The notes: generated from the letters alone by a model not told the origin. A DNA stretch of 39,193 nucleotides from Burkholderiaceae bacterium (GCA_947482555.1 CANKKB010000003.1:1-39193); one strand, 5' to 3'; counted from the stretch's first letter, positions 13,362-32,042 are shown. A program made the numbers and translations.

Positions 13362-13949
13362 TTAACTCAGTATTGAGACAAACTCTGTAGGTAGCATTCG
13401 CGGTTTTTGTGGCGTCGACCGATCTGGTGTGCCAATATTGATAAAGCATAAAGGATCTTCATCCACACTAAGGCTAAATAAATCTCGAATGGGCTGCATA
13501 TACATCGACTTACCACTCGTTGGACTAGCCCCAAAGCCCATGGCATGTGCCATAAGAAAGATATTTTGAATAGCACACCCAGCAGAAATAATGCGTTCAC
13601 TTAATGGCACTGAATGATCGGAACCCCTTGCATTAACGACCAGCAGCATCACAAATGGTGCCCGATGTGCCTTAACCATCGCATCTTGAACTTGTTGGTC
13701 GGTGGCTGAAGAGTCTCGATCTAATAGCGATTTAGCAAATGCTTGGGCTAACTCCCCCCTTTTTTCGAGCGGGCATATCACAAAACGCCACGGACGGATT
13801 AACCCATGATCTGGTGCAGTTGCTGCCATTGAAAATAGGATATCTAACTGCCCCTGAGTTGGGCCAGGCTGAAATAAACGTTTTGGCAAAAAGGATTGGC
13901 GAGTTGAAATTAGAGTTTGGATTATTTCGCACAATTGACTATTGACCAT
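13362..13949 (-). CDS. Nitroreductase-family protein, likely last gene of the nar unit
   Basis: Short nitroreductase pattern APDHGLIRPWRFVICPLEKRGELAQAF...AGCAIQNIFLMAHAMGFGASPTSGKSM; same strand, about 35 bp after narI. Confidence 0.8.
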   Translation of the reverse strand: MVNSQLCEIIQTLISTRQSFLPKRLFQPGPTQGQLDILFSMAATAPDHGLIRPWRFVICPLEKRGELAQAFAKSLLDRDSSATDQQVQDAMVKAHRAPFVMLLVVNARGSDHSVPLSERIISAGCAIQNIFLMAHAMGFGASPTSGKSMYMQPIRDLFSLSVDEDPLCFINIGTPDRSTPQKPRMLPTEFVSILS

Positions 13950-13984: not shown

Positions 13985-14686
13985 CTATTTTCTACCAATA
14001 CCAAGACGTCTGCTGCGCACAATTTGATATGGGCGAAATAAATAGGTGATAGAGGCAAAGCCGCTCCAAATATGCACCAGCCGGGTAAAGGGAAAAATTA
14101 GAAACAGTGTCATCCCCAAAAACATATGTAGGCGAAATACCCAATTAACTCCACTTAATAACTCAACTGCACCGCCCTGAAATGCCATAATATGTTGCGC
14201 CCAACCAGCCAGCTTCAGCATCATCGAGCCATCTAAGTGAGATGCCGATAATGGAATTGTCGCTAACCCAAGTACCAGTTGTATCCATAAAATAAGTAAA
14301 AGTAAAATATCGCTAGGCTTACTAGTAAGCCGAATACGATCATCCATTAAACGCCGATACAATAAAATACTTAAACCAACCAATCCAAAGATGCCTGCAA
14401 TGCCGCCCGTTATCATAGCAACAAGTTGCTTATCACCGGCAGCAATAAAGGACTCATAAAAGAAATGGGGAGTGAGCATCCCAAAGAAGTGTCCAAAGAA
14501 CAAAAATAACACGCCAATATGAAATAACATACTACCTAAGCGTAGTTGTTTTTTACGCAATAGCTGGCTTGAATCACTTTTCCAAGTGTATTGATCGCGA
14601 TCAAATCGAATTAAACTGCCTAAAAAAAATATCGTTAGACATATGTAGGGATAAATTCCAAAAATAAATACCTCTAAATAGTTCAT
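13985..14686 (-). CDS. narI: Respiratory nitrate reductase gamma subunit (cytochrome b)
   Basis: FGIYPYICLTIFFLGSLIRFDRDQYTWKSDSSQLL...LGSMLFHIGVLFLFFGHFFGMLTPHFFYE; follows narJ with 4-bp overlap. Confidence 0.97.
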   Translation of the reverse strand: MNYLEVFIFGIYPYICLTIFFLGSLIRFDRDQYTWKSDSSQLLRKKQLRLGSMLFHIGVLFLFFGHFFGMLTPHFFYESFIAAGDKQLVAMITGGIAGIFGLVGLSILLYRRLMDDRIRLTSKPSDILLLLILWIQLVLGLATIPLSASHLDGSMMLKLAGWAQHIMAFQGGAVELLSGVNWVFRLHMFLGMTLFLIFPFTRLVHIWSGFASITYLFRPYQIVRSRRLGIGRK

Positions 14687-15366
14687 GCTTGAACTCCTTG
14701 TTTATCTTTAGCACGTTGAATAAAATGAAGTGGCTGTTCATCTCCCGGCTTGCCTTGGCCTTGAGTAGTGCATCCCCCAAATGCAGGAGGTTCTGCCCAA
14801 GTCTCGTCAATTGATTCGTCTTTAATCTTGAGGTCAAGGATTTTTACTTTCTCTCCAGAATATTCAATTGCAGCAGCGATTACCCATGCATACCTACTTT
14901 GGCGGGCTACTAATGCGCTATAAATTGAATTTAAAATATGTTCCATTTCTGCGATAAATTGCCTCGACTGAGCTAGCTCTAAAGTGGAAGCAAACTCCAG
15001 CACAATTGATAATTGATCTGGTAATTCATTGGTTGCAAGTATCAAGCCACCTGCCTTATAGGTCTGCAATAAATCAACCATCGCTTGTCCACGTTCACGT
15101 GAGTCGCCATGCACGTGCTCAAATAAATGCAAGGAGGTAGCCCTTCCCCGATCAAAATACTCTACATATTCCTCCTGCAGTACATAAAGATCTGTTGTTT
15201 TTAAATATTGTATTAACTCATTTAATCCAATTTCTACGGACTTGCTTATTTTCGGCAAGGCAATAACTATAGGCTTCATTTCTAATAAATTTTCACGAAG
15301 CTCGGCATCGGGATATTGAAGTAATCTAGATAAAGCACGTAGCGATAATAAATCTTTCATCTGCAT
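14683..15366 (-). CDS. narJ: Nitrate reductase assembly chaperone
   Basis: RALSRLLQYPDAELRENL, YVEYFDRGRATSLHLFEHVHGDSRERGQAMVDLLQTY; between narH and narI. Confidence 0.96.
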   Translation of the reverse strand: MQMKDLLSLRALSRLLQYPDAELRENLLEMKPIVIALPKISKSVEIGLNELIQYLKTTDLYVLQEEYVEYFDRGRATSLHLFEHVHGDSRERGQAMVDLLQTYKAGGLILATNELPDQLSIVLEFASTLELAQSRQFIAEMEHILNSIYSALVARQSRYAWVIAAAIEYSGEKVKILDLKIKDESIDETWAEPPAFGGCTTQGQGKPGDEQPLHFIQRAKDKQGVQA

Positions 15367-15370
15367 CCCC

Positions 15371-16894
15371 TTAAGCGCTTAGGTTAATTGGAATCGTGCG
15401 GCGCTTAGTTCCACCAAAGAGGCTAGCTTCTGAATCCCCATCTGAACAGCCATTGCCGAATGTAAAACCGCAACTTCCCTTCATCTCAAATGTGTTTTCT
15501 GCATATTCACGATGCGTAGTGGGTATCACGAAACGATCTTCGTAGTTTGCAATTGCCATAATTTGATACATATCTTCAACTTGACTCGCAGAAATTCCGG
15601 CTTGATTTAAAGCGGCATGATTTTCAGTGCCATTGACATGTTTATCACGTTGCCAAGCTCGCATTGCAAGCATTTTTTCTAATGCAGCAACTACTGGAGC
15701 CTCATCTCCCGCCGTTAACATATTTGCCAAATATTGAATTGGAATGCGCAATTGCCTAACATCAGGAATATGGCCATTCACACCAACATATCCCGCCTCA
15801 ACTGCGCCAGTAATCGGAGAAAGTGGTGGCACATACCAAACCATGGGTAGGGTTCTATATTCAGGGTGCAGCGGCAAGGCAATTTTCCAGTCCATTGCCA
15901 TTTTGTAGACTGGACTTTTCTTAGCGGCATCTAACCAATTTTGCGGCACGCCGTCTTGTAAAGCTTGCTTTTGCACTACTGGATCATGTGGATCCAGAAA
16001 AATCTTTAATTGGGCTTCATATAAATTATTTTCTCCCTCAACGCTGGCAGCGTGTTCAATTTGATCAGCATCGTATAGCATGACACCCAAATATCGAATT
16101 CGACCTACACAAGTTTCTGAACAAACGGTAGGCTGTCCAGACTCGATGCGTGGGTAGCAAAAAATACACTTCTCAGCCTTACCACTCTTCCAGTTATAGT
16201 AAATCTTTTTATAAGGGCAGGCTGAAACACACATCCGCCAGCCGCGACACTTGTCTTGATCAATTAAGACAATGCCGTCTTCTTCGCGCTTATAAATTGA
16301 CCCCGACGGACATGAAGCTACACAGGCAGGGTTCAAGCAATGCTCACATAATCTTGGCATATACATCATGAAGGTATTTTCAAATTGCCCATAGACATCT
16401 TTTTGCATCTGATCAAAGTTGGTATCTTTACTCCGTTTAGAAAATTCACCACCTAAAATTTCTTCCCAGTTGGGTCCCCACTCAATTTTTTCCATTCGCT
16501 TCCCAGTAATTAAGCTTTTAGGCCGCGCAGTTGGGGTTGCCTTAGACTCTGGAGCATTTTGTAAGTGCTCGTAATCAAAGGTGAAAGGTTCGTAGTAATC
16601 ATCAATTTCAGGTAGATTAGGATTGCCAAATAAATTCATCCAGATTTTTGATCGACCGCCTTGCTTGGGCTCAAGCTTGCCATTACTTTTCCGAGTCCAG
16701 CCACCCTTCCACTTTTCTTGGTTTTCCCAATTTTTAGGATAACCAATACCAGGCTTTGTTTCTACGTTATTAAACCAGGCGTATTCCATGCCGGGACGAT
16801 TAGTCCAGACTTGTTTGCAGGTTACTGAGCAAGTATGGCAACCAATACATTTATCCAAGTTTAATACCATGCCAATTTGTGCGCGAATTTTCAT
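15371..16894 (-). CDS. narH: Respiratory nitrate reductase beta subunit (Fe-S)
   Basis: MKIRAQIGMVLNLDKCIGCHTCSVTCKQVWTNRPGMEYAWFNNVETKPGIGYPKNWENQ; CRGWRMCVSACPYKKIYYNWKSGKAEKCIFC. Confidence 0.98.
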   Translation of the reverse strand: MKIRAQIGMVLNLDKCIGCHTCSVTCKQVWTNRPGMEYAWFNNVETKPGIGYPKNWENQEKWKGGWTRKSNGKLEPKQGGRSKIWMNLFGNPNLPEIDDYYEPFTFDYEHLQNAPESKATPTARPKSLITGKRMEKIEWGPNWEEILGGEFSKRSKDTNFDQMQKDVYGQFENTFMMYMPRLCEHCLNPACVASCPSGSIYKREEDGIVLIDQDKCRGWRMCVSACPYKKIYYNWKSGKAEKCIFCYPRIESGQPTVCSETCVGRIRYLGVMLYDADQIEHAASVEGENNLYEAQLKIFLDPHDPVVQKQALQDGVPQNWLDAAKKSPVYKMAMDWKIALPLHPEYRTLPMVWYVPPLSPITGAVEAGYVGVNGHIPDVRQLRIPIQYLANMLTAGDEAPVVAALEKMLAMRAWQRDKHVNGTENHAALNQAGISASQVEDMYQIMAIANYEDRFVIPTTHREYAENTFEMKGSCGFTFGNGCSDGDSEASLFGGTKRRTIPINLSA

Positions 16895-16908: not shown

Positions 16909-19900
16909 TTACGCTTGTATAGCGTTCCTATTTTCACTATCTAGCCAATCAATCTTGCGCATTTTTCGAATGGTGACAAATTCATCGCGATTAGTGCCTA
17001 TAGTGCCGTAATAATTAAAGCCGTAACTGTATTGCGCATAACCACCAATCATATGGGTTGGCTTTAATACAATACGGGTTACCGAGTTATGAATACCACC
17101 ACGCATACCCGTAATTTCTGAGCCAGGAGTATTAATAATTTTTTCTTGGGCGTGGTACATCATGACCATCCCAGGATTAACGCGTTGACTAACTACTGCG
17201 CGTGCAGCAATAGCGCCATTAGCGTTATAAAGTTCCACCCAATCGTTATCTACAATTCCTGCATCACCCGCATCATCTTCACTGAGCCATACCACTGGGC
17301 CCCCGCGGTTTAAGGTCAACATCATCAAGTTATCGCTATATGTAGAATGGATTCCCCATTTTTGATGTGGCGTAATGAAATTCAGGACAATTTCTTTATT
17401 ACCATTAGGTTTAATCCCTTTAATACCATTAATTGTTTTTAAATCAACTGGTGGTCTATACGACACTAAACCCTCCCCAAATGCCCGCATCCATTTGTGA
17501 TCTTGATAAAACTGTTGCCGGCCAGTTAAGGTTCGCCATGGAATATATTCATGCACGTTGGTATATCCAGCGTTGTAAGAAACCTTTTCGCTTTCCAAGC
17601 CAGACCATGTTGGTGAACTAATAATTTTTCTAGGTTGCGCTTGAATATCTCTAAAGCGAATTTTTTCATCTTCACGATGTAAGGCTAAATGCGCATGCTC
17701 AAGACCGGTTATTTTCGATAAGGCATTCCAGGCCTTTACAGCCACATGACCATTAGTTTCTGGGGCAAGCATTAAAACCACTTCTGCTGCGTCAATATCT
17801 GTATTAATGTTAGCCATCCCCTTCATGGCTCCTTCTTTGACGCGCCCATTTAAATCACGTAGCTGCTCAACCTCATCTTTGGTGTCCCATGCAATACCTT
17901 TACCCCCATTGCCAACTTTCTCCATTAGTGGACCTAAGGCTGTAAACCGCTGATAAGTATTAGGGTAATCCCGTTCGACTACAGTAATTTGAGGTGCCGT
18001 TTTTCCAGGGATCAGCTCGCATTCGCCTTTTTTCCAATCATGCACATCAAACGCCTGAGCAAGCTCAGCAGGCGTATCGTGCATTAATGGTGTTAAAACA
18101 ATATCCTTTTCTACACCCAAATGACCAACGCAAACTTCGGAAAATTTCTTGGCAAACCCTTTGTAAATATCCCAATCACTGCGAGCTTCCCATGCTGGAT
18201 CTACTGCGGTCGATAAAGGGTGAATAAAAGGGTGCATATCGCTGGTATTTAAATCATTCTTTTCATACCAAGTTGCAGTAGGCAAAACAATGTCAGAATA
18301 TAAGCAGGTTGTACTCATGCGGAAATCTAACGTAACTAATAAATCTAATTTTCCTTCGGGTGCATGCTCATGCCAAGCTACCTCAGATGGCCTAGCCTCA
18401 TCGTTACCCAAATCCTTACCCTGCACTCCATGAGAAGTACCCAGTAAGTGCTTGAGAAAATATTCATGGCCTTTACCAGAAGATCCCAATAAGTTTGAGC
18501 GCCAGACAAACATATTTCGCGGCCAATTATTGGGATGATCAGGATCCTCACAGCTCATTTTTAATGAGCCCTCCTGCAAATTCTTTACCACATATTCTTT
18601 GGGATCGATTCCTGCAGCGATAGCATCTTTAGCCACATCTAATGGATTCGTTTTTAACTGTGGGGCTGAAGGTAACCAACCCATTCGCTCTGCACGAACG
18701 TTGTAATCAATCATACTACCTTGATAGTCAACCTTATTGGCTAAGGGTGAAAGAATTTCTTCCATCCCTAGCTTTTCATAGCGCCATTGATCTGTATGTG
18801 CATAGAAAAAACTGGTTGAATTTTGTTGACGCGGTGGGCGAATCCAATCTAAGGCAAAAGCCAAAGGAGTCCATCCTGTTTGCGGACGTAACTTTTCTTG
18901 ACCTACATAATGCGCCCATCCTCCGCCGCTTTGCCCTATACAGCCGCACATCATTAACATATTGATAATACCGCGATAATTCATATCGCAGTGATACCAG
19001 TGATTCATGGCGGCGCCAATAATCACCATTGACTTACCTTGCGTTTTTTCAGCATTGTCAGCAAACTGGCGAGCTACAGCAATTACTTGCTCCTGTTTGA
19101 CTCCAGTAATTAATTCTTGCCATGCGGGTGTATAAGGCACATTGTCATCATATGATTTTGCACTTTCGCCGCCTAAGCCTCTATTAATGCCATAATTTCC
19201 GGCTAATAAATCAAAGACTGTGGCAACATAAACTTCTTTTTTATTATCTTCTTCACCTAGGCTAATTTTTTTTGCAGGTACATTGCGAACTAATACATCG
19301 GTTTGTTTATTGCCATCAAAATGAGGTGTGGCAATTCCACCAAAATAGGGAAATCCAACTGGCACAATCTCATGCAATAACTGATCTTCCATGAGGGACA
19401 ATTTTAATTTTGTTTCTCGGTCATATTGCGCTTCTTTTGCTTCTAAATTCCACTTGCCTAAATCTTTGCGCCCATCCGGACCCCATCTAAAGCCAATCGA
19501 TCCATTGGGTACTACTGGTTTACCGCCAATATCAAATGCTACCGTTTTCCAATCAGCGCCATTGGTTTGCCCCAACTTACCCTCAAAATCACTCGTACGA
19601 ACATAACGGCCAGGGACAAGAATCGTCCTGCCATCCTCAATGACTTTTTCTTCTAGTATGACTAACATTGGCATATCGGTATAACGACGTACGTAATCGT
19701 CAAAATACGCAGTACGTTTATCAAAATAAAACTCTTTAAGAATGACGTGCCCCATTGCCATAGCGATAGCAGCATCGGTGCCTTGCTTTGGATGCATCCA
19801 AATATCAGCTAACTTTGAAACTTCTGCGTAGTCTGGAGTGATGGCTACGGTTTTAGCACCTTTGTATCGGACTTCGGTAAAAAAATGCGCGTCAGGTGTG

Positions 19901-20682
19901 CGTGTTTGTGGAACGTTTGAACCCCAGGCGATAATGAAGGTTGAGTTATACCAATCAGCTGACTCAGGGACATCAGTTTGTTCTCCCCATACCTGAGGGC
20001 TGGCAGGCGGTAAATCACAATACCAATCATAGAAGCTCATACAAACACCACCAATTAGACTCAGGTATCGCGAGCCTGCGGCGTAACTTACCATTGACAT
20101 TGCAGGGATGGGTGAAAAGCCAATAATACGATCAGGTCCATGTTGCTTAATGGTGTAAATATTTGCGGCGACAATTATTTCATTTACCTCATCCCATGAG
20201 GCCCTTACAAATCCACCCATTCCACGTTGTGCCTGCCACTCTTTACGTTTTTCTTGGTTTTCTACTAAATTGGCCCACGCATCAACAGGGCTTTTGGCAA
20301 TCGATTTTGCTTCACGCCATTGTTTAAGCAAGCGTCCTCGTATCATCGGGTACTTCACTCGATTCGCACTATACATGTACCAGCTATAACTTGCCCCCCG
20401 TGCGCAGCCTCGCGGCTCATGATTAGGTAAATCAGATCGAGTTCTTGGGTAATCTGTCTGCTGGGTTTCCCAAGTAACTATTCCACCCTTTACATAAATC
20501 TTCCATGAACAAGATCCAGTGCAATTAGTGCCATGCGTCGAACGCACAATCTTATCGTGCTGCCAGCGAGAACGATAGGCATCTTCCCAGGTGCGGTCTT
20601 CTGCAACTGTTTTACCGTGACCATTTGAAAATTTCTCAGAATCAACAGTTAAAAATTTCAGGCGGTCTAAAAAGTGACTCAT
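16909..20682 (-). CDS. narG: Respiratory nitrate reductase alpha subunit (Mo-bisMGD)
   Basis: 1257 aa; [106 protein letters not shown]. Confidence 0.98.
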   Translation of the reverse strand: [1257 protein letters not shown]

Positions 20683-20702: not shown

Positions 20703-22085
20703 TTAGCAAGGCATTAGGGCATTTTTACGGCTGTAATACCACCAAGTGATCACTGTGCACGTAACATAAAAAACAATAAATGCATATAAAGCGGCCTCTG
20801 GACCGCCCGTTGCGGCGATTGATGAGCCATAACTTTTAGGTATAAAGAAACCACCATAAGCACCGACTGCGGAACTAAAACCCAGCACAGCTGCAGCCTC
20901 CTTATTGGCATCACGTATTGCCTGATCCTGTCCTGACTGTGTTTGACTCGCGACACGTTGACGTTCAGTGAGAAAAATAACAGGAATCATGCGAAAGGTA
21001 GAGCCATTACCAATACCGGAGGTAGCAAATAAAGCCATAAAAGCAATTAAAAAACCGAAGAAATTTCCGCCTGTTCCATGGCTGGGTAAATAATTTAAAA
21101 CAGCAAATACACCCACACTCATGGCAATAAAATTCCAAAAAGTGACTCTGGCTCCCCCTAACTTGTCAGATAACCATCCTCCAATAGGTCTAGCTAGGGC
21201 CCCAACTAAGGGGCCTAACCAGGCATAGCTCAAGGCATTTACTCCCGGAAATTGACTTTTAATTAGTAAGGGAAAGCCGGCAGAATAGCCAATAAAAGAT
21301 CCGAATGTACCTAGATAAAGCCAGCACATTAGCCAGTTATGTTTACGTTTAAAAATTACCGCCTGATCTGCGAAAGTTGCCTTTGCTTCAGCTAAATCAT
21401 TCATGCCAAACCAAGCAGCAATAGATGCTGTAGCAATAAAAGGTAACCAAATAAATCCCGCATTTTGCAACCAAAGCAAAGAAGTATTGCCTGCTTTAAT
21501 TACTATTTGAGGTTCGCCACCAAAAACACCAAATATTCCCGTTGTAATGACCAGCGGTACAACTAATTGCACAATCGATACTCCCAAATTACCTAATCCA
21601 GCGTTTAATCCTAAAGCTGTCCCTTTTTGTGCCTTCGGATAAAAAAAACTAATGTTTGCCATGGATGATGCAAAATTACCACCTCCAAATCCACACAACA
21701 ATGCGAGCAAGATAAATATTTCATATGGCGTAGCAGGATTTTGGACGGCCAAACCAATCCCAGCAGCTGGAATTAATAATGAAGCTGTTGAAATTGCAGT
21801 CCAACGACGGCCGCCAAAAATAGGTACTGCAAAAGAATAAAAAATACGCAGAGTTGCACCACAAAGTGCAGGTAGAGAGGCGAGCCAAAATAATTGATTA
21901 GTGGAGAATTTAAAGCCCACATTTGGTAAATTTACTACTACTACAGACCAAACCATCCAAACTGAAAACGCTAAGGTTAACGCCGGAATTGAAATTAATA
22001 AATTTCGTTTTGCTATAGCCTTACCGATTCCATCCCAAAATTGTTTATTTTCAGGATCCCAGCGTGTGATAACAGTAGAAGACAT
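20703..22085 (-). CDS. narK2: Nitrate/nitrite transporter, type 2 NarK-like MFS
   Basis: WDPENKQFWDGIGKAIAKRNLLISIPALTLAFSVWMVWSVVVVNLPNVGFKF; nitrate signatures GFGGGNFASSMANISFFYPKAQKGTALGLNAGLGNLGVS. Confidence 0.93.
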   Translation of the reverse strand: MSSTVITRWDPENKQFWDGIGKAIAKRNLLISIPALTLAFSVWMVWSVVVVNLPNVGFKFSTNQLFWLASLPALCGATLRIFYSFAVPIFGGRRWTAISTASLLIPAAGIGLAVQNPATPYEIFILLALLCGFGGGNFASSMANISFFYPKAQKGTALGLNAGLGNLGVSIVQLVVPLVITTGIFGVFGGEPQIVIKAGNTSLLWLQNAGFIWLPFIATASIAAWFGMNDLAEAKATFADQAVIFKRKHNWLMCWLYLGTFGSFIGYSAGFPLLIKSQFPGVNALSYAWLGPLVGALARPIGGWLSDKLGGARVTFWNFIAMSVGVFAVLNYLPSHGTGGNFFGFLIAFMALFATSGIGNGSTFRMIPVIFLTERQRVASQTQSGQDQAIRDANKEAAAVLGFSSAVGAYGGFFIPKSYGSSIAATGGPEAALYAFIVFYVTCTVITWWYYSRKNALMPC

Positions 22086-22111: not shown

Positions 22112-23377
22112 TTATTGAATTGCAGATGGAATGGCCTTGCCGCCCATTAGTTCAGAACGACGTACTTCAGTGAAATACATCCAAATGAGTGATACCCATA
22201 CCACTCCATACATCAACATAAATGCACTCGACCGAATACCCGTGATATCTAACAATGCACCAAATAAGATCGGCAATACAAAACCACCTAGCCCCCCTGC
22301 TAAGCCAACAATCCCTGAAATGGTGCCAATATTATTTGGATAGTCGTCGCCAATATATTTAAAGACACTTGCTTTTCCAAATGCCCAAGCAACTCCTAAA
22401 ATAAACATCAGCGCGGTAAATAAATAAATATTTAAACCAATATGAAAGGTTTCTGGTCCATTAATCGTTTGAATGATGAATTCAGTTGGAGGATAGGAAA
22501 GTAAAAAAAGGCATATCCAACTTACCCACATTACCCACCAAGTTACTTGGTGGGCGCCATACTTATCAGCAAACCAACCACCAATTGCGCGTAAAACCCC
22601 ACCTGGCAATGAAAAACATGCAGCCAATAATGCTGCAGTACGTATTTCTAGGCCAAACTCGCCTACGTAGTACTGAACCATCCATAAACTAAGGCCTACA
22701 TAGCCGCCAAATACAATGCTGTAATACTGGCAATAACGCAATACTTTGGGGTCTTTTAATGCCTTGAGTTGCTCTTTAAATGAGGTATTAGTCGTCACTA
22801 GATGCGTGGAATCGCTATAACTAAAAAACCAAAATAAAATAGCCGCACCAAGCATGACAGCCGCATAAACTTGTGGCACAACTGTCCAACCAAAAGCAAC
22901 TACTAATGCAGGCGCAATAAATTTATTTACTGCCGCGCCAGAATTTCCAGCACCAAAAACACCCATGGCAAAGCCTTGGCGACTATTTGGGAACCATCTC
23001 GCCACATAGGGAGTACCTACTGAGAAGGATCCGCCAGCCAAACCAACAAATAAACCGATTACTAAAAAATGCCAATATTGTGTTGCATATGACATCAGCC
23101 AGATTGGAATTACGCAAGCTAACATTAATGAAAGCATGACGATTCTTCCGCCATAGCAATCAGTCCATATTCCTAAAGGTACTCGAACTAAAGAACCCGT
23201 TAAGATTGGCATTGCAGTAAGAAAACCAAATTGTGTAGCGCTTAAATTAAGCGTTTTCTTAATAGGAATGCCAATCACGCCAAACATCATCCAGACCATG
23301 AAGCACACAGTAAAAGCAAGGGTACTTATAATTAGAACCGTATATGCTTTAGAATTTGTTTGAGTAATGGAACTCAT
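22112..23377 (-). CDS. narK1: Nitrate/nitrite transporter, type 1 NarK-like MFS
   Basis: FTVCFMVWMMFGVIGIPIKKTLNLSATQFGFLTAMPILTGSLVRVPLGIWTDCYGGRIVM; GLAGGSFSVGTPYVARWFPNSRQGFAMGVFGAGNSG. Start revised to MSSITQ (23377), which has a strong SD (AAGGGAG); the ORF track uses upstream ATG 23395. Confidence 0.92.
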   Translation of the reverse strand: MSSITQTNSKAYTVLIISTLAFTVCFMVWMMFGVIGIPIKKTLNLSATQFGFLTAMPILTGSLVRVPLGIWTDCYGGRIVMLSLMLACVIPIWLMSYATQYWHFLVIGLFVGLAGGSFSVGTPYVARWFPNSRQGFAMGVFGAGNSGAAVNKFIAPALVVAFGWTVVPQVYAAVMLGAAILFWFFSYSDSTHLVTTNTSFKEQLKALKDPKVLRYCQYYSIVFGGYVGLSLWMVQYYVGEFGLEIRTAALLAACFSLPGGVLRAIGGWFADKYGAHQVTWWVMWVSWICLFLLSYPPTEFIIQTINGPETFHIGLNIYLFTALMFILGVAWAFGKASVFKYIGDDYPNNIGTISGIVGLAGGLGGFVLPILFGALLDITGIRSSAFMLMYGVVWVSLIWMYFTEVRRSELMGGKAIPSAIQ

Positions 23378-23502
23378 GAAAATCTCCCTTTTCATGAATC
23401 ATTATCAAAACTAAATTGACCTAGGAATATCCCCCAAAAAGAATATTTTAGAAATGCAAAGGAACTAGAATTTTCACCTTTACTAGTCCTTTAGGACTAC
23501 TT

Positions 23503-24165
23503 CTAAGGACAGAGCCTCTCTACGTTTGCAAATACGGCTACCTGTACTCGCGAGGAAAGATTTAATTTACGCAAAACATGCTGCACATGAATCTTGACCG
23601 TAGTATCAGCAATGCCAAGTTCACGAGCAATTACTTTATTACTCGAGCCCTTAGCAATTTGACAAACGATTTGCAACTCTCGAGGTGAGAGACTGGCAGC
23701 TAAAGAGTCACTAGTATTATTATCTAAATTATCTTTTTTACTAAATTTAAATGCAGTAACTAATTTATGAGTCATTTCCTGACTAATAACAGACTCGCCA
23801 TTAAATGCTTTTCGTATTCCAATAAGTAAATCGTCCTTTTCGCTAGTCTTTAGCAAATAGCCTTGAGCACCATTTTGTAAGGCTTGAATTAAATCAGCCT
23901 CATCTTCGCTCACTGTAAGCATAATGACTGTTACATCAGGAGCAGCGCGAAAAATATCTGGCAAAGATTGAATGCCGCTGGCACCAGGCAAGTGATTATC
24001 AAGCAAAACCACATCGGGATGCAAAGCCTCGCAAATTCGTAAAGCTCCAACCGCATCACCTGCCTCACCAATTACATCAAAATCAGGGGCTTGAGAGAGT
24101 AAAGAAATTAACCCCCTTCTAAAAAGAGTATGGTCATCAACTACAAGTATGCTAATTTTTTCCAA
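23503..24165 (-). CDS. narL: Nitrate-responsive response regulator
   Basis: MEKISILVVDDHTLFRRGLISLLSQAPDFDVIGEAGD...LSPRELQIVCQIAKGSSNKVIARELGIADTTVKIHVQHVLRKLNLSSRVQVAV; follows narX. Confidence 0.93.
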   Translation of the reverse strand: MEKISILVVDDHTLFRRGLISLLSQAPDFDVIGEAGDAVGALRICEALHPDVVLLDNHLPGASGIQSLPDIFRAAPDVTVIMLTVSEDEADLIQALQNGAQGYLLKTSEKDDLLIGIRKAFNGESVISQEMTHKLVTAFKFSKKDNLDNNTSDSLAASLSPRELQIVCQIAKGSSNKVIARELGIADTTVKIHVQHVLRKLNLSSRVQVAVFANVERLCP

Positions 24166-24180
24166 TTAATTATTATTTAA

Positions 24181-26046
24181 TTAGGCACTCATCGAGGCTA
24201 AGTTAGGTAGACATAAATAAACTCTCGAGCCGCCATTTGGGGGGGAAGAAATAGTTACTTCGGCATTAATTTTACTAGCACGTTCTCTCATGATACTCAC
24301 CCCTACATGGGTACTATCCAATTTGTCTAAATCAATTAAAAAACCAATACCATCATCTACAACCTCAAAAGACCAAATCGGATTTTGCTGTACGGTTAGG
24401 GTAACAGTTTTCGCTTTAGCATGCTTTCTAATATTGGATAAAGCCTCTTGAATAATATGCAGTACTTGAATTTGCACATCAGGCGCCAAGGGTAATCCCT
24501 GACCATGCATTTTAAGGTTTACTTTAATGCCAAATTGGTGCTCAAATTTTTGCAACGTAGTCTTAATTGCCGATTCAATATCTTCATCATTTGTTCTAGT
24601 TCTATAGTGCAATAAAAGTTCACGCACATCACTATAACTCTCCCTCAAACCCTCATCAAGTTCATTTAAAATTGCTTTGACATTTGGCATTTGCAATGTA
24701 GATATTTCATCGCGTAATAAACTAGCTTGAATTTTTAAGAATGCCAAAGATTGTGCAATCGAGTCATGAAGCTCTCTAGCTAAGAGACTACGCTCATCAG
24801 AGATAGCAGCCTCCTTCTCTAAAGCCTTGATTCGCAATGCTTCCATCGCCCCCGCCAAATGATTGGCCAGGGTTTCAAGTAAAGCATGTTGCTCTTGATC
24901 AATAATGAATGATTCAACATAAAATAAATCAATTTCACCCAATAACTTCTGCTGAAAAAGTATAGGCACAGTAATAAGAGATTGAAAACCCGCTTTAACG
25001 CAAAATCGATCCTTCTCCTCGTTCAGGTTAAATTTAATTACCTTAATATCTTGTATACCTGTAGCGTTTCCACAATGGCATTCACCTGCATTCATACACT
25101 GCTCACCAGTCAAGATTGAATCTGGTAAATTTGTTCCGGATAATAAAAAATAACGCTTATTGGCTTCATCAGTCCACCGAATAGCAATTGCTGCGGCATG
25201 GCTAATCAATGAAACTCTATCAGCAAAACCTTTAGCCAGATTCTCTAAATTATTTTCACTCGAAACAAAAGAACTTAAATCATATAATGCAGCTAATCGC
25301 TCTTGGCGCTCTTGCAAGTGTATAGTTTTCTCGCGTACTTTTGCTTCTAGGCTCTCATATAAATCATTTAAATTTTCAGTCATAGCATTAAAACCTTGAG
25401 CCAAATCGCCAAATTCATCCTGGGCATCAATTTGTACATGGGTTTTTAATTTGCCTGACTTAACTTCATCAAATCCAATTCTTAACTTGGCAACGGGATC
25501 TAAAATAACAGAATAGCCAACATACATAATGACTAAAGTTGCCACCAAAGAAATAGCTAACATCGCAAATTGAAATAAATGCAATAGCCCAGTCCAGTAA
25601 TCAACCTCTTCCTCTATCAGCCCTACAAAGCGATCAATGCTAGAGATAAACTGATCGATATTCTGTACGGAAAGTACATTGGCCTGCTGTAAAGCAAGGC
25701 CATGTTTAATATCTTTCCATTGCGCTTGAATACTTAAAAAAACTTTAGTATTTGCCTGATTCCAAGGAACAAATAAAGGCCTAGATGGATCTCCCAGCCT
25801 CAACACTTGCATGCTTTCGTCAAATTTTTTCTCTAGTTGCGCAGCTAACTTTGACTTATTTTCGTTAATTAAAAGAGTAAGCTGATAGGTTTGCATTCGC
25901 ATTCTACCTGCCTCATTTATTGCTGCTGCACCACCTTCAAGCTTCCAAGTTACCCATAAGGTAAAGCTAATAGATATCATGGCTAGCACCAAGAGTGCTG
26001 TACCAATAATGACTAATTTATGTTTGAGGGTAAATTCGTTTCGCAT
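24181..26046 (-). CDS. narX: Nitrate/nitrite sensor histidine kinase
   Basis: P-box-like INEAGRMRMQTYQLTLLI; HAMP; GAF-like region with GEQCMNAGECHCGNATG; HisKA_3 SLLARELHDSIAQSLAFLKIQASLL; HATPase. Start MRNEFTLKHK at 26046 preferred over the 26109 ORF start inside nrdJ. Confidence 0.93.
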   Translation of the reverse strand: MRNEFTLKHKLVIIGTALLVLAMISISFTLWVTWKLEGGAAAINEAGRMRMQTYQLTLLINENKSKLAAQLEKKFDESMQVLRLGDPSRPLFVPWNQANTKVFLSIQAQWKDIKHGLALQQANVLSVQNIDQFISSIDRFVGLIEEEVDYWTGLLHLFQFAMLAISLVATLVIMYVGYSVILDPVAKLRIGFDEVKSGKLKTHVQIDAQDEFGDLAQGFNAMTENLNDLYESLEAKVREKTIHLQERQERLAALYDLSSFVSSENNLENLAKGFADRVSLISHAAAIAIRWTDEANKRYFLLSGTNLPDSILTGEQCMNAGECHCGNATGIQDIKVIKFNLNEEKDRFCVKAGFQSLITVPILFQQKLLGEIDLFYVESFIIDQEQHALLETLANHLAGAMEALRIKALEKEAAISDERSLLARELHDSIAQSLAFLKIQASLLRDEISTLQMPNVKAILNELDEGLRESYSDVRELLLHYRTRTNDEDIESAIKTTLQKFEHQFGIKVNLKMHGQGLPLAPDVQIQVLHIIQEALSNIRKHAKAKTVTLTVQQNPIWSFEVVDDGIGFLIDLDKLDSTHVGVSIMRERASKINAEVTISSPPNGGSRVYLCLPNLASMSA

Positions 26047-26059
26047 TTTCTTAATTAAG

Positions 26060-28471
26060 CTATCCACAGGTCCCGATAAATCCACAATTAGTGCAATATT
26101 CACAGCCATCTTTTTTAATTAATGCATGCGCACCACATTCTGGGCATTTCTTGCCCCTCATAATTCCTGGAGTATTTAATACTGCTGTCTTATTGCTGCT
26201 CTGAATATCTGTATGCGCATTAAATTCAGCGACACCACGCCTTATCAAAATGTTTTCAATGGCAAATGCAACTGCTGATACTTCAGAGTCATGCCACATT
26301 GGTACCTCGATACCGTCATCTTTTTTCCTAGTTCCCAGGCGAACTGGGCCGCGATCCCATGCAACTTTACGCATATCTCCTAGCGCTCTTACTAGAAATC
26401 CACCGCGTGCAGCCAATGAAAGGAGTCGCATACTTGAAGTAATCCATTGCTGCGATTCTCCACTTTGGCCTACTGGCATGAAAAATTCAATGGCTCGCTC
26501 AGATTGAACCTCTTCTCCATTAATAAACCCATGTACGTTTAAAAATGAAATAATTAAATATAGAGTTTTTTGCCCATCTTGAGTCCAGTAATTAATTTTT
26601 TCAGCTACAGCTGGTAACTCACCATTGGGTCGGCGATCTACTACTTTTTTAGATGGATTACCTCCCAGATTGGATGTATTTTTGGTTATTATTGGCAACT
26701 CTTCGGGCTGAGCTTCAATCACATGCAAAACTGAACCTAAAATTGAATTCGGTCGATAGGTTGTCAGGCCTTTTAAATTTGATTGCCAAGCCTTAAAATA
26801 TAAATTTACAAAACTTGCAAACGGATAATCGGCAGGGACATTAACTGTTTTTGATATGGCTGTATCAATATAGGGCTGCACTACCTCCATCATGGCAATA
26901 TGATCTTCCGCAGACATTGCTAAGGCGGTAATAAAATAGTCTGGTAAAGCATTTATATCTCCTCCCATTTCTTTAAATACTCGCCAAGCATGATCTTCTA
27001 CCGAGTACTCCCTGGTTGATCCATCAGTCTCTCTTTTTTTGCGCTGATAAGTCCAAGAAAATGGTGGCTCAATTCCATTGGAAGCATTATCAGCAAATGC
27101 CAGACTTACTGTTCCAGTTGGGGCAATTGAAAGTAAGTGACTATTCCGAATACCAAATTTACGAATCTCCGTTTTTAAATTGCTATCTAAACGACTAGCG
27201 AAATTTGTTCCGCCTAAATACCGCTCAATATCTAAAGCAGGAAAAGCACCCTTTTCTTTTGCTAAATCAACTGAAGCTTGATAAGCAGCATCTCGTAAAT
27301 GTTTTGCGATATTTTCTGCCTCAGATCTCCCTGCGCTGCTGTTATAAGCTAATTTAAGCATTATCAATGCATCACCAAGACCCGTAAAACCAACACCAAT
27401 ACGACGTTTCGATTGGGCCTCAATAGCTTGTTCTTTTAGAGGCCAATAGGTTACGTCTAGAACGTTATCCAGCATTCTCACTTGAATTTTTACTGCCTCA
27501 ATAAATCCAGGGTAATCAAACGATGCAGTTCCAGCAAATCCAAATGGATTAATAACGAATCGAGGCAAAATTATTGGACCTAAATCACAACATCCATATG
27601 GGGGTAAGGGCTGTTCGCCACATGGATTGGTAGCTTCAATAGATTCACAATAACTTAAATTATTATCACTATTAATATTATCTAAAAATAAAATCCCAGG
27701 TTCGGCAAAATCATATGCAGATTCCATCACTAGGAGCCAAATTTCTTTTGCCTTGATTGTTTGGTAAACCCAAAGTCCATCTGCACGTTGATGAACTTCT
27801 TGGGTAATATTTTTATTGCTTGGCTTGGCTTTATGAACTAAATCCCATAAGCCGTCTCTTTCAACTGCGCGCATAAATTTATCAGAAACGCCCACAGAAA
27901 TATTAAAATTATTCCAGCGCCCAGGGGTTCGCTTAGCATTAATAAAATCAAAAATATCGGGATGATCTATTTTTAGAACTCCCATTTGTGCGCCCCGCCG
28001 CGAGCCTGCACTTTCAACAGTAGAACAAGATTGATCAAATACATTGATATAACTACAAGGCCCAGAAGCAAATGATGCAGTTCCTTTTACCTCGGCACCT
28101 TTTGGCCGAATACGCGAAAAATCATAGCCAACTCCACCACCACGCCGCATAGTTTCTGCAGCTTGTTTTAAGGCCTCATATATTCCCGGAAAACCATCTT
28201 CATCAAAATCCTGAATGCAATCGCCAACTGGCTGCACAAAACAATTAATTAAGGTTGCTTGAATACCGGTTCCGCCAGTACTCATAATTCGACCAGCGCC
28301 AATTGCTCCTGCTAGCATATTTTTTAAAAATAAGGCTTCTATTTTTTTTTGTAAAGCTGGTAATTCAACAGCGGCCAAACCCATAGCTACTCTTTTAAAA
28401 ATAGCCTCAGCATCCTCTTCGCCAGGCTTAAGGTATTTTTCCTTTAAAACATCAATGCTAATTTGTTGCAT
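26060..28471 (-). CDS. nrdJ: Adenosylcobalamin-dependent (class II) ribonucleoside-diphosphate reductase
   Basis: MSTGGTGIQATLINCFVQPVGDCIQ, RRGGGVGYDFSRIRPKGAEV, SAGSRRGAQMGVLKIDHPDI, ATNPCGEQPLPPYGCCDLGPI, RRIGVGFTGLGDALIML, C-terminal zinc-ribbon CPECGAHALIKKDGCEYCTNCG. Confidence 0.93.
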   Translation of the reverse strand: MQQISIDVLKEKYLKPGEEDAEAIFKRVAMGLAAVELPALQKKIEALFLKNMLAGAIGAGRIMSTGGTGIQATLINCFVQPVGDCIQDFDEDGFPGIYEALKQAAETMRRGGGVGYDFSRIRPKGAEVKGTASFASGPCSYINVFDQSCSTVESAGSRRGAQMGVLKIDHPDIFDFINAKRTPGRWNNFNISVGVSDKFMRAVERDGLWDLVHKAKPSNKNITQEVHQRADGLWVYQTIKAKEIWLLVMESAYDFAEPGILFLDNINSDNNLSYCESIEATNPCGEQPLPPYGCCDLGPIILPRFVINPFGFAGTASFDYPGFIEAVKIQVRMLDNVLDVTYWPLKEQAIEAQSKRRIGVGFTGLGDALIMLKLAYNSSAGRSEAENIAKHLRDAAYQASVDLAKEKGAFPALDIERYLGGTNFASRLDSNLKTEIRKFGIRNSHLLSIAPTGTVSLAFADNASNGIEPPFSWTYQRKKRETDGSTREYSVEDHAWRVFKEMGGDINALPDYFITALAMSAEDHIAMMEVVQPYIDTAISKTVNVPADYPFASFVNLYFKAWQSNLKGLTTYRPNSILGSVLHVIEAQPEELPIITKNTSNLGGNPSKKVVDRRPNGELPAVAEKINYWTQDGQKTLYLIISFLNVHGFINGEEVQSERAIEFFMPVGQSGESQQWITSSMRLLSLAARGGFLVRALGDMRKVAWDRGPVRLGTRKKDDGIEVPMWHDSEVSAVAFAIENILIRRGVAEFNAHTDIQSSNKTAVLNTPGIMRGKKCPECGAHALIKKDGCEYCTNCGFIGTCG

Positions 28472-29678
28472 AATTATTTATCTTAGTTCCTGTTTCTGAT
28501 AACAGCCAATTAATTAAATCAGCCACTGAACGAATTTGATCGCCGAAGGGTAATGTTCCAGCCCCTCTAAAAAATAAACCTTTTTGGGTATCTCCTGTAA
28601 ATGCGCTCCCGAGAACTTTGTCTATACAAAATTGCCCCCAAGCAGCATTACCATCCCTTAAACCACAATCATGTAAGCAATCAAATACCATTGTGCATCT
28701 TGGCTTTTTACGTGCCTTATTTTTTAACTTGGCCTCGGCTTTCATATAATTTTTTAACCAAGGCGTCATTACTGCTCTTGCAGGTAAGCCTGCAACGCTT
28801 AAAAACTCAACCAGCTCTTCAGGCCTGGAGCCAGCTAGTACTTTTTTAAATGCCTCGTCTGCATCTCCCTCTAACGTTACCGCAAAGGCTGTGCCCAACT
28901 GAACCCCTGACACTCCCATGGACTGTAGTTTTTGAATGTCCTGTAAATTACTAATTCCACCAGCGGCAATTAAAGGAATTTGCCCCTCTATTCCCATCCT
29001 TTTAAAAAAATCCATTACCTGAGGAATAACATTTTCAAAATCGAATTTAGGATTATTAATGTCAGCTACTGAAGAAGCCCCCAGATGTCCTCCAGCTAAT
29101 TTAGGGTTTTCAATCACAATTGCATCTGGCAAGCGTCCTTTTTTCTCCCATTTTTTTACCAATATTTGCACACCCCTTGCCTCCGATAAGATGGGAATTA
29201 ATGCTGTGGCTGGATAACCAGCAGCTAAATCTGGCAGGTCAAGCGGCAACCCTGCGCCAACCACAATTGCATCAACACCGCTCTCTAAAGCACAAGCAAC
29301 ATAAGCCTCATATTCATTAACAGCACGCATAACATTAACTGCGATAAGTCCGAAACTACTCGAACCCTCTTGAGCCATCTTAATTTCTCTTTTCAAGGCC
29401 TCAAGGTTTGCTTGATTTATAGCCTTCTTACTTTCTACTGAAGGGGGAAGGTGTTGGGTCAGATCCATTAAATCTGGATGTAAGCGGCGTAAATCAATTG
29501 AAGAAATAGTCCCCATACCACCAATTTTTGCAACAGCGCCAGCTAAGCGATGGGCTGAAACCCCGACGCCCATGCCACCCTGTACTATCGGTAGAATAGT
29601 TTTACCTTTAATTGTCAAGCTTTTAAGTCCGCTTGAATCAAGCAGTTGATTAAATAATTGCGGTATTAAAGGATTCAT
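28458..29678 (-). CDS. Nitronate monooxygenase-like (2-nitropropane dioxygenase family) FMN enzyme
   Basis: LPIVQGGMGVGVSAHRLAGAVAKIGGMGTISS, IPLIAAGGISNLQDIQKLQSMGVSGVQLGTAFAVTLEGDAD. Confidence 0.85.
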   Translation of the reverse strand: MNPLIPQLFNQLLDSSGLKSLTIKGKTILPIVQGGMGVGVSAHRLAGAVAKIGGMGTISSIDLRRLHPDLMDLTQHLPPSVESKKAINQANLEALKREIKMAQEGSSSFGLIAVNVMRAVNEYEAYVACALESGVDAIVVGAGLPLDLPDLAAGYPATALIPILSEARGVQILVKKWEKKGRLPDAIVIENPKLAGGHLGASSVADINNPKFDFENVIPQVMDFFKRMGIEGQIPLIAAGGISNLQDIQKLQSMGVSGVQLGTAFAVTLEGDADEAFKKVLAGSRPEELVEFLSVAGLPARAVMTPWLKNYMKAEAKLKNKARKKPRCTMVFDCLHDCGLRDGNAAWGQFCIDKVLGSAFTGDTQKGLFFRGAGTLPFGDQIRSVADLINWLLSETGTKINNYATN

Positions 29679-30847
29679 TTTGTAGCTTTAATGAAGTCTG
29701 CAGAAAACATCATTGGAGTGTATTTATACAAATACAGAAAATAAGCTAGGCACCAACAAGCACCTGAAATAATCAGCAAGGAATTAAATAAATTACTTGG
29801 TGCCAGATGCGCTATTAACCAAAAAGCGGCTGCACAAGGCACTAATAAGTAACATGCATGCTCGATCTTTCCAGCAACCAATGGTCTGCCAGTATGGCCA
29901 AGTGCGGTACGCGTAATCATTCCAATAATTAAACCCCCAGTAGCCCCAATTCCAAAAGCATGCAAGGCAGGATAGATCGAAACTAATTTAAGCGAGTAAA
30001 TGCCTAATAAAAAAAAGCCAAACACAAGCCAAGCATATGAGATATGTAATATCCATAAAATTGGTTTATTTTTAGTTGCAAGTGGTCGCCAGCCCCACAG
30101 CAAAATGGCATGTAACGTGGCAGTTATAAAACATAAGACAGCTGAAATAATATTGGGTGTAAAAAATGCTAGGGTTAAAAATGATATCGCGGTAAATATT
30201 AATGTTGCTTTGGCTATAGTAGGATGACGAAATTGCTGAATTCCAGGAATCGCATTTGCAGTAAAACTTGGTATAACTCTGCCGCCAATCATGACTTCAA
30301 TCATGGTGATTAAATACAAAGCAATAAAAAGTAAAGGATTTGGATCGATTGCTATGTAACCTAAAGCTGCTAAATAAAAAATTCCATTCAAAAAACCTAA
30401 TCCCAAAAGAATCATCGGGAGAAAAAGATTTCTAAGCATTCGACGTCGATAAATTAACCGCCCAATCACAATTGCAATTACCGGAAGAAATGCGACGTCA
30501 AAAATAGCAAAAAATGGATTTAGAAAAGGGCCAATGCGTCCTGAAAGCCACAAAAGAACTAGCAAAGCCAAAGAGAGGCCTTTGGGGGTTTCTAAACCGG
30601 TCCAGGCTCGAACGGCTGTTAAAGAAAATCCCGCAATGACAGTGGCAGCAAAGCCAAACAGCATTTCATGAGCATGCCATTGCATGCCCACTATCAATTG
30701 CTGCCTCCGTAAGCTATATCCATTTAACTCTAAAAGCCACTCAAATAAGGCTAGCGCAGACCACAAAGCGGCACATAAATAGAATGGTCTAAACCCTAAG
30801 GAAAAAATTGGGGGAGTTCTGCTTCTCACCTTATATACTCCAATCAA
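29675..30847 (-). CDS. nnrS: NnrS family membrane protein (nitric-oxide stress associated)
   Basis: PPIFSLGFRPFYLCAALWSALA...VGMQWHAHEMLFGFAATVIAGFSLTAVRAWTG; GRVIPSFTANA; multi-TM. Confidence 0.9.
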   Translation of the reverse strand: MIGVYKVRSRTPPIFSLGFRPFYLCAALWSALALFEWLLELNGYSLRRQQLIVGMQWHAHEMLFGFAATVIAGFSLTAVRAWTGLETPKGLSLALLVLLWLSGRIGPFLNPFFAIFDVAFLPVIAIVIGRLIYRRRMLRNLFLPMILLGLGFLNGIFYLAALGYIAIDPNPLLFIALYLITMIEVMIGGRVIPSFTANAIPGIQQFRHPTIAKATLIFTAISFLTLAFFTPNIISAVLCFITATLHAILLWGWRPLATKNKPILWILHISYAWLVFGFFLLGIYSLKLVSIYPALHAFGIGATGGLIIGMITRTALGHTGRPLVAGKIEHACYLLVPCAAAFWLIAHLAPSNLFNSLLIISGACWCLAYFLYLYKYTPMMFSADFIKATK

Positions 30848-30982
30848 TTTTATAAATAAGCTTACCGCGCCACGGCATTACTGGCAATGCCAGCATTCTC
30901 AACCTATTAATGGAGAAATGAAATAGCTCTATAGAACTACCCTTGAGTATAGGGTCTACACCCTCTAAAAAACATGGTTCCT

Positions 30983-30996
30983 TTGCGCTAGATCAA
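30983..30996. promoter_or_regulatory. FNR/ANR/Dnr-like site (TTGCG-CTAG-ATCAA)
   Basis: Matches TTGAT-N4-ATCAA perfectly in one half-site and 3/5 in the other; 136 bp upstream of the nnrS start in an intergenic region. Confidence 0.6.
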
Positions 30997-31082: not shown

Positions 31083-31615
31083 TTATTCTTTCTTCAGGTT
31101 TTCTGCCTGAATAACAGGGCGCAAGCTCACTAACTCTTTAGCAATAAATGCTGTCGCTTTTACCCGGTAGCACTATTAATTGGCTGAATTGAAATAGTGG
31201 CCAATTTTTCTATCAAGGCCGGATCGGAAAGCGTCTCCAACCACAGCAATTTCAGTAAAATCTTTAATTAAATCATATTGGGGCTTAGGATTTATTAGGC
31301 TATAAAACACAAGCGTTGAGGCAGTACCAAATAATAATGTATACCCATCGGGATTGCTGTTTTTTATTTCAAGCGATCCAATTGCACCGCTAAAACTGCT
31401 TTTTTTATTAACTACTACCGTAACTCCAAGTTGGGCCCCAAGCGATTGTGCATATAACCTTGCAAACTGGTCAGTTGGGTCGCTAGCTGGAAATGGCACA
31501 ACTAAACAAATTGGTTTGACGGGATACGTATTTTGTGATTTCGAGGTGTCGAATAAAAAAATTCACTCAACATAAGTAAACTGAGTATTAAAATAAAAAC
31601 TTTACTTAAGTTCAT
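31083..31615 (-). pseudogene. Decayed Bug/TctC-family binding-protein gene
   Basis: Fragments in different frames: signal peptide MNLSKVFILILSLLMLSEFF (ATG 31615); then YPVKPICLVVPFPASDPTDQFARLYAQSLG...FTEIAVVGDA; then C-terminal LSDPALIEKLATISIQPINSATG / KATAFIAKELVSLRPVIQAENLKKE*. The middle of the protein is missing. Confidence 0.85.
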
Positions 31616-31627
31616 ATTGATTCTCAA

Positions 31628-32042
31628 TTAGAGTTGACTACTATTCCACTCAGTTGATGGCTCGGATGGTTCAGCGAGCAACGCAGATAATTTAATCTCT
31701 TCAATTGCGCAATACTCATCTTTGTCCCAGGTATCGCCACTAATGCCGACAACTCCTATATCCACTCTCTGCTGATTTAAGATTAGTTCGCCTCCAGGTG
31801 CTGTAATGAAGCGCCCATCAGATGCAATTGCTAAAGTATTTTGAAAAACAGGACGTATCGAAGCGCAAAACACCATAGCCATTTTCACGTTTAAATGCTA
31901 CAAGTTGCCCGCCAGCATCGAGTGCCGCAATCGCCAGTGGCAAAATACCCTTATCTGCGTATATTTTAATTGCTGAATTAATAATGCTATCTGCTATAGC
32001 CAAATCTAAACTTGAATGAATTGGAATCAGTTTTTCTTCCAT
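31628..32042 (-). pseudogene. Decayed GlcG/HbpS-like (DUF336) gene
   Basis: Two overlapping frames: ALDAGGQLVAFKRENGYGVLRFDT and RPVFQNTLAIASDGRFITAPGGELI...IGVVGISGDTWDKDEYCAIEEIK. The family's central segment between them is missing and the frame changes. Confidence 0.85.

Follow-up and report, generated by a model that had tools for sequence, protein, structure and literature searches.

In Pseudomonas aeruginosa, the class II ribonucleotide reductase (RNR) encoded by nrdJab serves anaerobic growth on nitrate and its promoter carries an FNR-type box, while in Cupriavidus (C. eutrophus H16) nitrate growth is served by a dedicated oxygen-independent enzyme of class III, NrdDG, for which NrdJ and vitamin B12 are a likely substitute (PMC2864759). 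Nitrate respiration itself is organised in Escherichia coli and Burkholderia in regulons comprising NarX/NarL, narK and narGHJI with NarL sites of the 7-2-7 type, the E. coli NarL heptamer being TACYYMT (PMC4886647). Here, we analysed a locus that combines these functions. It lies on a 39,193-nt stretch of Burkholderiaceae DNA (GCA_947482555.1, CANKKB010000003.1:1-39193; hereafter 'the window'), which is contig C3 of a 1.95-Mb, 205-contig Polynucleobacter metagenome-assembled genome with a completeness of 77.65%, and it places the class II RNR gene nrdJ next to narX-narL and narK1K2GHJI.

Like the two anaerobic RNR systems above, the locus links an oxygen-independent RNR to nitrate respiration. 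Unlike in P. aeruginosa, a NarL-like site precedes the unit, nrdJ is located inside the nar locus and a class III RNR is absent; unlike in Cupriavidus, the enzyme belongs to class II and is linked to narXL. Compared to the E. coli and Burkholderia regulons, the proposed regulon adds an RNR and a gene resembling Helicobacter pylori fabX, and its heptamer would read TAGYYCT instead of TACYYMT. The open-licence literature searched yielded no previous account of a nar unit that includes nrdJ, whether NarL-marked or not.

We assign a probability of about 0.7 to the reading that the genes form a unit under the control of NarL and an FNR-type regulator, which ties nitrate respiration to an oxygen-independent synthesis of deoxyribonucleotides (dNTPs) and perhaps of unsaturated fatty acids. 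In the proposed mechanism, NarX-NarL would sense nitrate/nitrite and NarL would bind a variant 7-2-7 site at two promoters, those of nnrS-nmo-nrdJ and of narK1K2GHJI, while an FNR-type regulator would add a low-oxygen signal at the former. Under low oxygen and nitrate, the nitrate transporters, the nitrate reductase and NrdJ would be made together; NnrS would act on nitric oxide (NO) stress and the FabX-like enzyme could replace the O2-dependent desaturase in providing unsaturated fatty acids.

Results and discussion

The genes in question are all encoded on the minus strand, five of them packed in the order nnrS-nmo-nrdJ-narX-narL and followed by the transport and reductase genes:

29675-30847, minus strand: nnrS, NnrS-family membrane protein (PF05940, 1.8e-93)
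28458-29678, minus strand: nmo, FabX-like flavoprotein with a predicted [4Fe-4S] site, NMO/FabK/FabX superfamily (PF03060, 1.8e-33)
26060-28471, minus strand: nrdJ, class II adenosylcobalamin-dependent RNR (TIGR02504)
24181-26046, minus strand: narX, nitrate/nitrite sensor kinase with PilJ, HAMP, GAF, HisKA_3 and HATPase domains (Pfam/NCBIfam)
23503-24165, minus strand: narL, response regulator (Pfam/NCBIfam; best solved structure E. coli NarL 1a04)
22112-23395, minus strand: narK1 (family search)
20703-22085, minus strand: narK2 (TIGR00886, above cut-off)
16909-20682, minus strand: narG (85-98% identity to NarG of 19 congeners)
13985-16894, minus strand: narH, narJ and narI (open reading frames and tblastn neighbourhoods)

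One indication of a functional connection between nrdJ and nar comes from their distribution. Among 186 surveyed Polynucleobacter genomes, narG was found in 20, nrdJ in 31 and both in 19; nrdJ is thus present in 19/20 narG-positive, but only in 12/166 narG-negative genomes (Fisher p = 6e-17, without regard to relatedness). Physical linkage of nrdJ to narXL-narK1K2GHJI is seen in 17 of the 20 narG-positive congeners. Together with a NarL-like palindrome at both promoters (see below), these numbers lend good support to the suggestion of a previous reading made from the sequence alone (the sequence-only reading) that the locus could be a nitrate-respiration growth module.

NrdJ scores 561 bits against TIGR02504 (cut-off 400). 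Its alignment to Thermotoga NrdJ (1xje/1xjk) matched the active-site NPCGE motif and the redox cysteines, its C-terminal cysteines are arranged as CPEC...CTNC, and it is 96% identical to NrdJ of Polynucleobacter sp. IMCC 30228. A check for a separate nrdAB, proposed in the sequence-only reading, yielded a class Ia pair, NrdA (991 aa) and NrdB, on contig C172 of the same genome, where nrdB is found together with nrdA and not beside nrdJ. NrdAB requires O2. Since a class III RNR (NRDD) was found in none of the 186 Polynucleobacter genomes, NrdJ is the sole oxygen-independent RNR seen in the genus. Supply with adenosylcobalamin looks available, judging from a PduO-type adenosyltransferase in 43 of the 44 genomes examined, a cobalamin riboswitch in 173/186 Polynucleobacter genomes and, alongside these two features, btuR in the window's own genome. 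An Rfam scan of the window itself returned no B12 riboswitch and no other Rfam element, and NrdR boxes were not above chance (17 matches, 26 expected). In many relatives, NrdJ carries an in-frame insertion of about 1 kb at the catalytic Cys284, which the window's NrdJ does not have; carriers are G034 (L168:9178-12687), G166, G167, G172, G173, G176 and G182 as well as loci L044 and L045, and the G034 insertion matches LAGLIDADG models and, below cut-off, intein-splicing models.

The close packing of five same-strand genes noticed in the sequence-only reading was confirmed: nnrS and nmo overlap by 4 bp (ATGA), nmo and nrdJ by 14 bp, and gaps of 13-15 bp follow, including 15 bp between the narX stop at 24181 and narL. 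Two starts are candidates for nnrS (TTG at 30847, or GTG at 30829 with GGAG ahead) and two for narX, namely ATG 26109 with a 50-bp overlap with nrdJ and ATG 26046 with a 13-bp gap, the latter being probably correct as it agrees with the N-termini of homologues. With one strand, overlaps or very short gaps and no terminator at the junctions, the array has the layout of a single operon in the window's clade, and nnrS-nmo-nrdJ-narX-narL may be one transcription unit there. Scans for sigma-70 promoters and terminators gave signals about or below shuffled level and were uninformative. Genes compared within this clade are under purifying selection (pairwise dN/dS 0.04-0.16). The NarX-like kinase and NarL-like regulator are encoded together, and neither reaches the NCBIfam equivalog cut-off set for its E. 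coli counterpart. The proposed continuation of the array into narK1K2GHJI stands in so far as narK1 is the next gene; the intervening gap comprises 107 bp and contains a conserved 16-bp palindrome, and two promoters are therefore likely.

Three locus types were distinguished in the genus. In type A (n = 3: the window, G152 and G072), nnrS-nmo-nrdJ-narX-narL-narK1K2-narGHJI is uninterrupted. In type B (n = 14), PAS-nnrS-nmo-nrdJ is followed by an antisense SLAC1/TehA-type gene (PF03595) and then by narX-narL-narK1K2-narGHJI. Type C has no nar genes and consists of ccm genes followed, in most cases, by nmo-nrdJ. Apart from the window, nnrS-nmo-nrdJ followed by narXL was found in 16 genomes of the genus, 14 of them with the one antisense gene in between, and because of this recurrence the gene order is not due to chance. 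NrdJ of types A and B groups in a single clade, with C apart, and the NarG tree places G009 outside A and B. As both G009 and type B have the tehA-type gene beside narX, its loss in the A lineage is the more parsimonious explanation, which makes the seamless nrdJ-narXL junction a derived feature of the window's clade of three genomes. In type B, the junctions on either side of the antisense gene (L028:12437-13402, minus strand, and counterparts) measure 2-21 and 12-27 bp, leaving hardly any space for a narX promoter.

Several observations in this survey weigh against coupling through a shared unit. G170 and G022 have nar, but their type C-like nrdJ sits on another contig; G009 (84% complete) has tehA-narXL-nar, but no nrdJ was found; and as nrdJ and narX flank the antisense gene in 14 of the 17 linked genomes, a single operon cannot be a requirement. 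The operon-level linkage of nrdJ to narXL suggested in the sequence-only reading would thus be limited to the same-strand near-overlap in the three genomes of the window's clade and not extend to the 14 interrupted loci. That type B nrdJ-narXL, the arrangement of most species, would be read through the antisense SLAC1/TehA gene as a noncontiguous operon, within a NarL regulon with the changed heptamer TAGYYCT and essentially two promoters, one serving nitrate respiration and the other an 'anoxic biosynthesis' pair of FabX-like enzyme and class II RNR, seems unlikely to us. Shared regulation, to which cis-elements and conservation point, appears well evidenced in comparison with one conserved nrdJ-narXL operon.

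A linkage of this kind might also have arisen neutrally, if nar and nmo-nrdJ were acquired together or ended up adjacent with no regulatory meaning. Few events would lie behind all linked Polynucleobacter loci, as types A and B share one NrdJ clade, and in most narG-positive genomes of the order nrdJ is not close to narG. We nevertheless regard such neutral co-transfer as improbable: nearly all nar-positive genomes of the genus (19/20) retain nrdJ, the two promoters share a palindrome whose occurrence follows that of nar from genome to genome, and other families combine nar with nmo, nrdJ and nnrS in other orders (G479, G233 and G222).

These other arrangements emerged from a survey of 399 genomes of the order, in which the distance between nrdJ and narG was judged by eye from listed coordinates. 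Only five genomes outside the genus have nrdJ within about 13 kb of narG (G479, G311, G233, G222 and G300). G479 and G233 show the order narGHJI-(carbonic anhydrase)-nmo-nrdJ-nnrS-nitroreductase, in G222, narGHJI is followed by nmo-nnrS-nrdJ, and in G300 narK1 and nrdJ are divergent. The nar-nrdJ association hence recurs in other gene orders, though rarely. With five cases, the idea that the order nnrS-nmo-nrdJ-narXL might be found across Betaproteobacteria had to be given up, and an operon conserved at that level is rejected.

The preferred reading, regulatory coupling, rests mainly on a 16-bp 7-2-7 inverted repeat, TAGYYCT-NN-AGRRCTA, which resembles NarL sites and precedes both the nnrS-nmo-nrdJ unit and narK1. 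The following sites were located in the window:

30983-30996, minus strand: putative FNR/FixK-type half-palindrome TTGATCTAGCGCAA upstream of nnrS (8/10 to TTGATNNNNATCAA)
30924-30939, minus strand: TAGTTCT-AT-AGAGCTA, 7-2-7 inverted repeat, proposed NarL box of the nnrS-nmo-nrdJ(-narXL) promoter
30895-30900, minus strand: GAGAAT, putative -10-like hexamer (GRRAAT), 23 bp from the palindrome
23484-23499, minus strand: TAGTCCT-AA-AGGACTA, perfect palindrome, proposed NarL box of the narK1K2GHJI promoter

Searching the window for TAGYYCTNNAGRRCTA with up to one mismatch gave two matches compared to 0.06 expected from shuffles, and the copies at both promoters are exact. Genome-wide, 29 exact sites were found in 18 nar-positive genomes, 28 of them at the nar locus (the remaining one being G152:C10:361194-361209), whereas 18 nar-negative genomes contain three in total. 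The narL-narK1 copy is present in all 17 intergenic regions listed (G182 with one mismatch to the pattern), and the nnrS-side copy is kept in types A and B, with one mismatch at one copy in some type B loci; in all inspected loci of types A and B, a GRRAAT hexamer follows the latter at the same distance of 23 bp. The palindrome is missing from eleven nrdJ loci that are not linked to nar, and ten nar loci outside the genus lack the exact TAGYYCT form. Between the divergent narK1 and nrdJ of G300, there is a 7-2-7 palindrome of its own, TACTCCC-AA-AGGAGTA, of which one heptamer fits the E. coli TACYYMT. Taken together, these data make binding of NarL to the palindrome a strong inference. The narK1 leader (23396-23502 and counterparts) also shows conserved half-sites, TAGTTC... 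and AGTAGTCTTTTGG, and a GATAAT just 5' of the start codon.

A different regulator might be responsible. Control could be exerted by FNR/Anr/Dnr-type proteins only, the palindrome being the site of another regulator or acting, independently of NarL, as an operator or at the RNA level. In P. aeruginosa, Anr/Dnr mediate the induction of nrdJ, and narL is without effect (PMC4860495), which speaks for such a model and against ours. The same holds for the heptamer, which differs from that of E. coli at position 3 while the 7-2-7 geometry matches at both promoters. In the recognition helix of NarL, TTVKIHVQH stands in place of the STVKVHVKH of the E. coli protein (1a04); since its Q also occurs in NarL of some other Burkholderiales loci, this replacement by itself cannot account for the change in the heptamer. 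FNR-type boxes bear on the question as well. Upstream of nmo/nrdJ, a perfect TTGATNNNNATCAA box was found in 6/7 nar-less type C loci (never more than one in a locus, with 0.65 expected over the pooled 128 kb), which speaks for FNR-type control both in this model and in ours. The nar-linked counterpart is degenerate (8-9/10 to TTGATNNNNATCAA), a further point against the dual control proposed here. It is located 57-60 bp before the palindrome in A and B loci; TTTGATCTAGCGCAAA is identical in the three type A genomes and all type B loci aligned have a similarly placed counterpart, from which we infer that an FNR-type protein binds upstream of nnrS. Against FNR-type control only, the palindrome has the 7-2-7 geometry of NarL sites, it occurs almost only together with narXL and nar, and narK1 and nrdJ of G300 are separated by a similar site whose heptamers are TACTCCC/TACTCCT. 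We therefore consider that model unlikely and favour combined control by NarL and an FNR-type protein.

The gene between nnrS and nrdJ has been assigned to the nitronate monooxygenases (NMO). Its best solved relatives, matched over its length, form the '2-nitropropane dioxygenase' group 7e1q/9k7h/9lt5 (E ~4e-53), while the best entry named nitronate monooxygenase reaches only 6e-9. We take 7e1q to be H. pylori FabX. The residues H182, E175, K152, R160, R164 and T130 described for this enzyme (PMC8626469) match the letters of the 7e1q chain. The two proteins have in common the NMO flavoprotein fold, catalytic His/Glu residues and, at the C-terminus, four cysteines in what is here a predicted cluster domain: His198, Glu190 and Gly196 of the window's protein correspond to FabX His182, Glu175 and Gly180 and are conserved in every homologue covering them. 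Cys328, 334, 338 and 351 are invariant, the last three aligning with FabX cysteines and the first being shifted by two residues (C300, C304, C308 and C320 in FabX). The acyl carrier protein contacts are partly conserved, with T130, K152, R160 and R164 replaced by Leu, Arg, Lys and Lys, so that charge is kept at three positions and T130 is lost. An AlphaFold model built from seven sequences (mean pLDDT 54.9, C-terminal part poor) was not used for fold search. 'NMO' thus is most like H. pylori FabX, an enzyme of unsaturated fatty acid synthesis, and its predicted activity is FabX-like.

A true nitronate monooxygenase or nitro-compound detoxifier would instead make nnrS-nmo a reactive-nitrogen defence pair with nrdJ as mere neighbour. 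The Pfam NMO match and the neighbouring NnrS and nitroreductase genes would fit. We find this doubtful given the large difference in E values, the conservation of four cysteines at the C-terminus, which recalls the cluster domain of FabX, and the fact that nmo accompanies nrdJ at loci where nnrS and nar are absent. Of the NO-stress functions that the sequence-only reading had seen in the array, NnrS remains, whereas NMO resembles FabX and not characterised nitronate monooxygenases. The genomic background would leave room for a FabX-like enzyme. Among 44 genomes of the genus, 40 carry a single gene of the FabA/FabZ family; another two have additional, weaker members, and in two none was found. 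In G002, the single gene encodes 149 aa between lpxD- and lpxA-like genes, a typical position of fabZ, and an O2-dependent fatty acid desaturase was found within ~1.37 Mb of this genome. Nearly all genomes examined thus appear to have a single FabZ-type gene and no FabA. Weighing against a role in oxygen-independent biosynthesis, H. pylori FabX uses O2 as electron acceptor (PMC8626469), and an anaerobic role in fatty acid synthesis would therefore be doubtful unless another acceptor served.

Further observations concern neighbouring genes and related loci. In genomes with no nar, nrdJ is located 3' of the cytochrome c maturation genes ccmEFGHI (L168, L169, L170, L164, L160 and L033-L038); nmo is present at most of these loci in Polynucleobacter and missing in the Limnohabitans-type ones (L033-L038, Limnohabitans/Comamonadaceae). 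G170 (L155, L156) has nmo with no nrdJ at its nar locus and a second nmo, paired with nrdJ, on another contig; either gene loss or a binning error may lie behind this. A further gene lies 3' of narI in the window:

13362-13949, minus strand: nitroreductase-family gene (PF00881)

Its homologues occur next to nnrS where other Burkholderiales have nmo-nrdJ-nnrS clusters, and also close to narI in G009. The region 31176-32042 (minus strand), between an SDR gene and nnrS, is decayed; it contains a fragment of a TctC receptor as well as an HbpS-like gene broken up into two reading frames.

Conclusions

Class II RNRs are known to support growth without oxygen; in the literature searched, control of nrdJ during growth on nitrate is exerted by Anr/Dnr, with no effect of narL in P. 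aeruginosa. As the cis-element is nearly restricted to two promoters per genome, it offers a clean test of direct control of dNTP synthesis by NarL. If the FabX-like assignment is true, nmo-nrdJ would be a matched pair, the annotation 'nitronate monooxygenase' beside nrdJ would be corrected, and a route to unsaturated lipids at low oxygen would be suggested for genomes that have a single FabZ and an O2-dependent desaturase but lack FabA. Our analysis suggests that a few Polynucleobacter lake bacteria probably switch on nitrate respiration and oxygen-free synthesis of DNA precursors together, and would thus predict which mostly aerobic lake bacteria can divide on nitrate, beyond merely respiring it.

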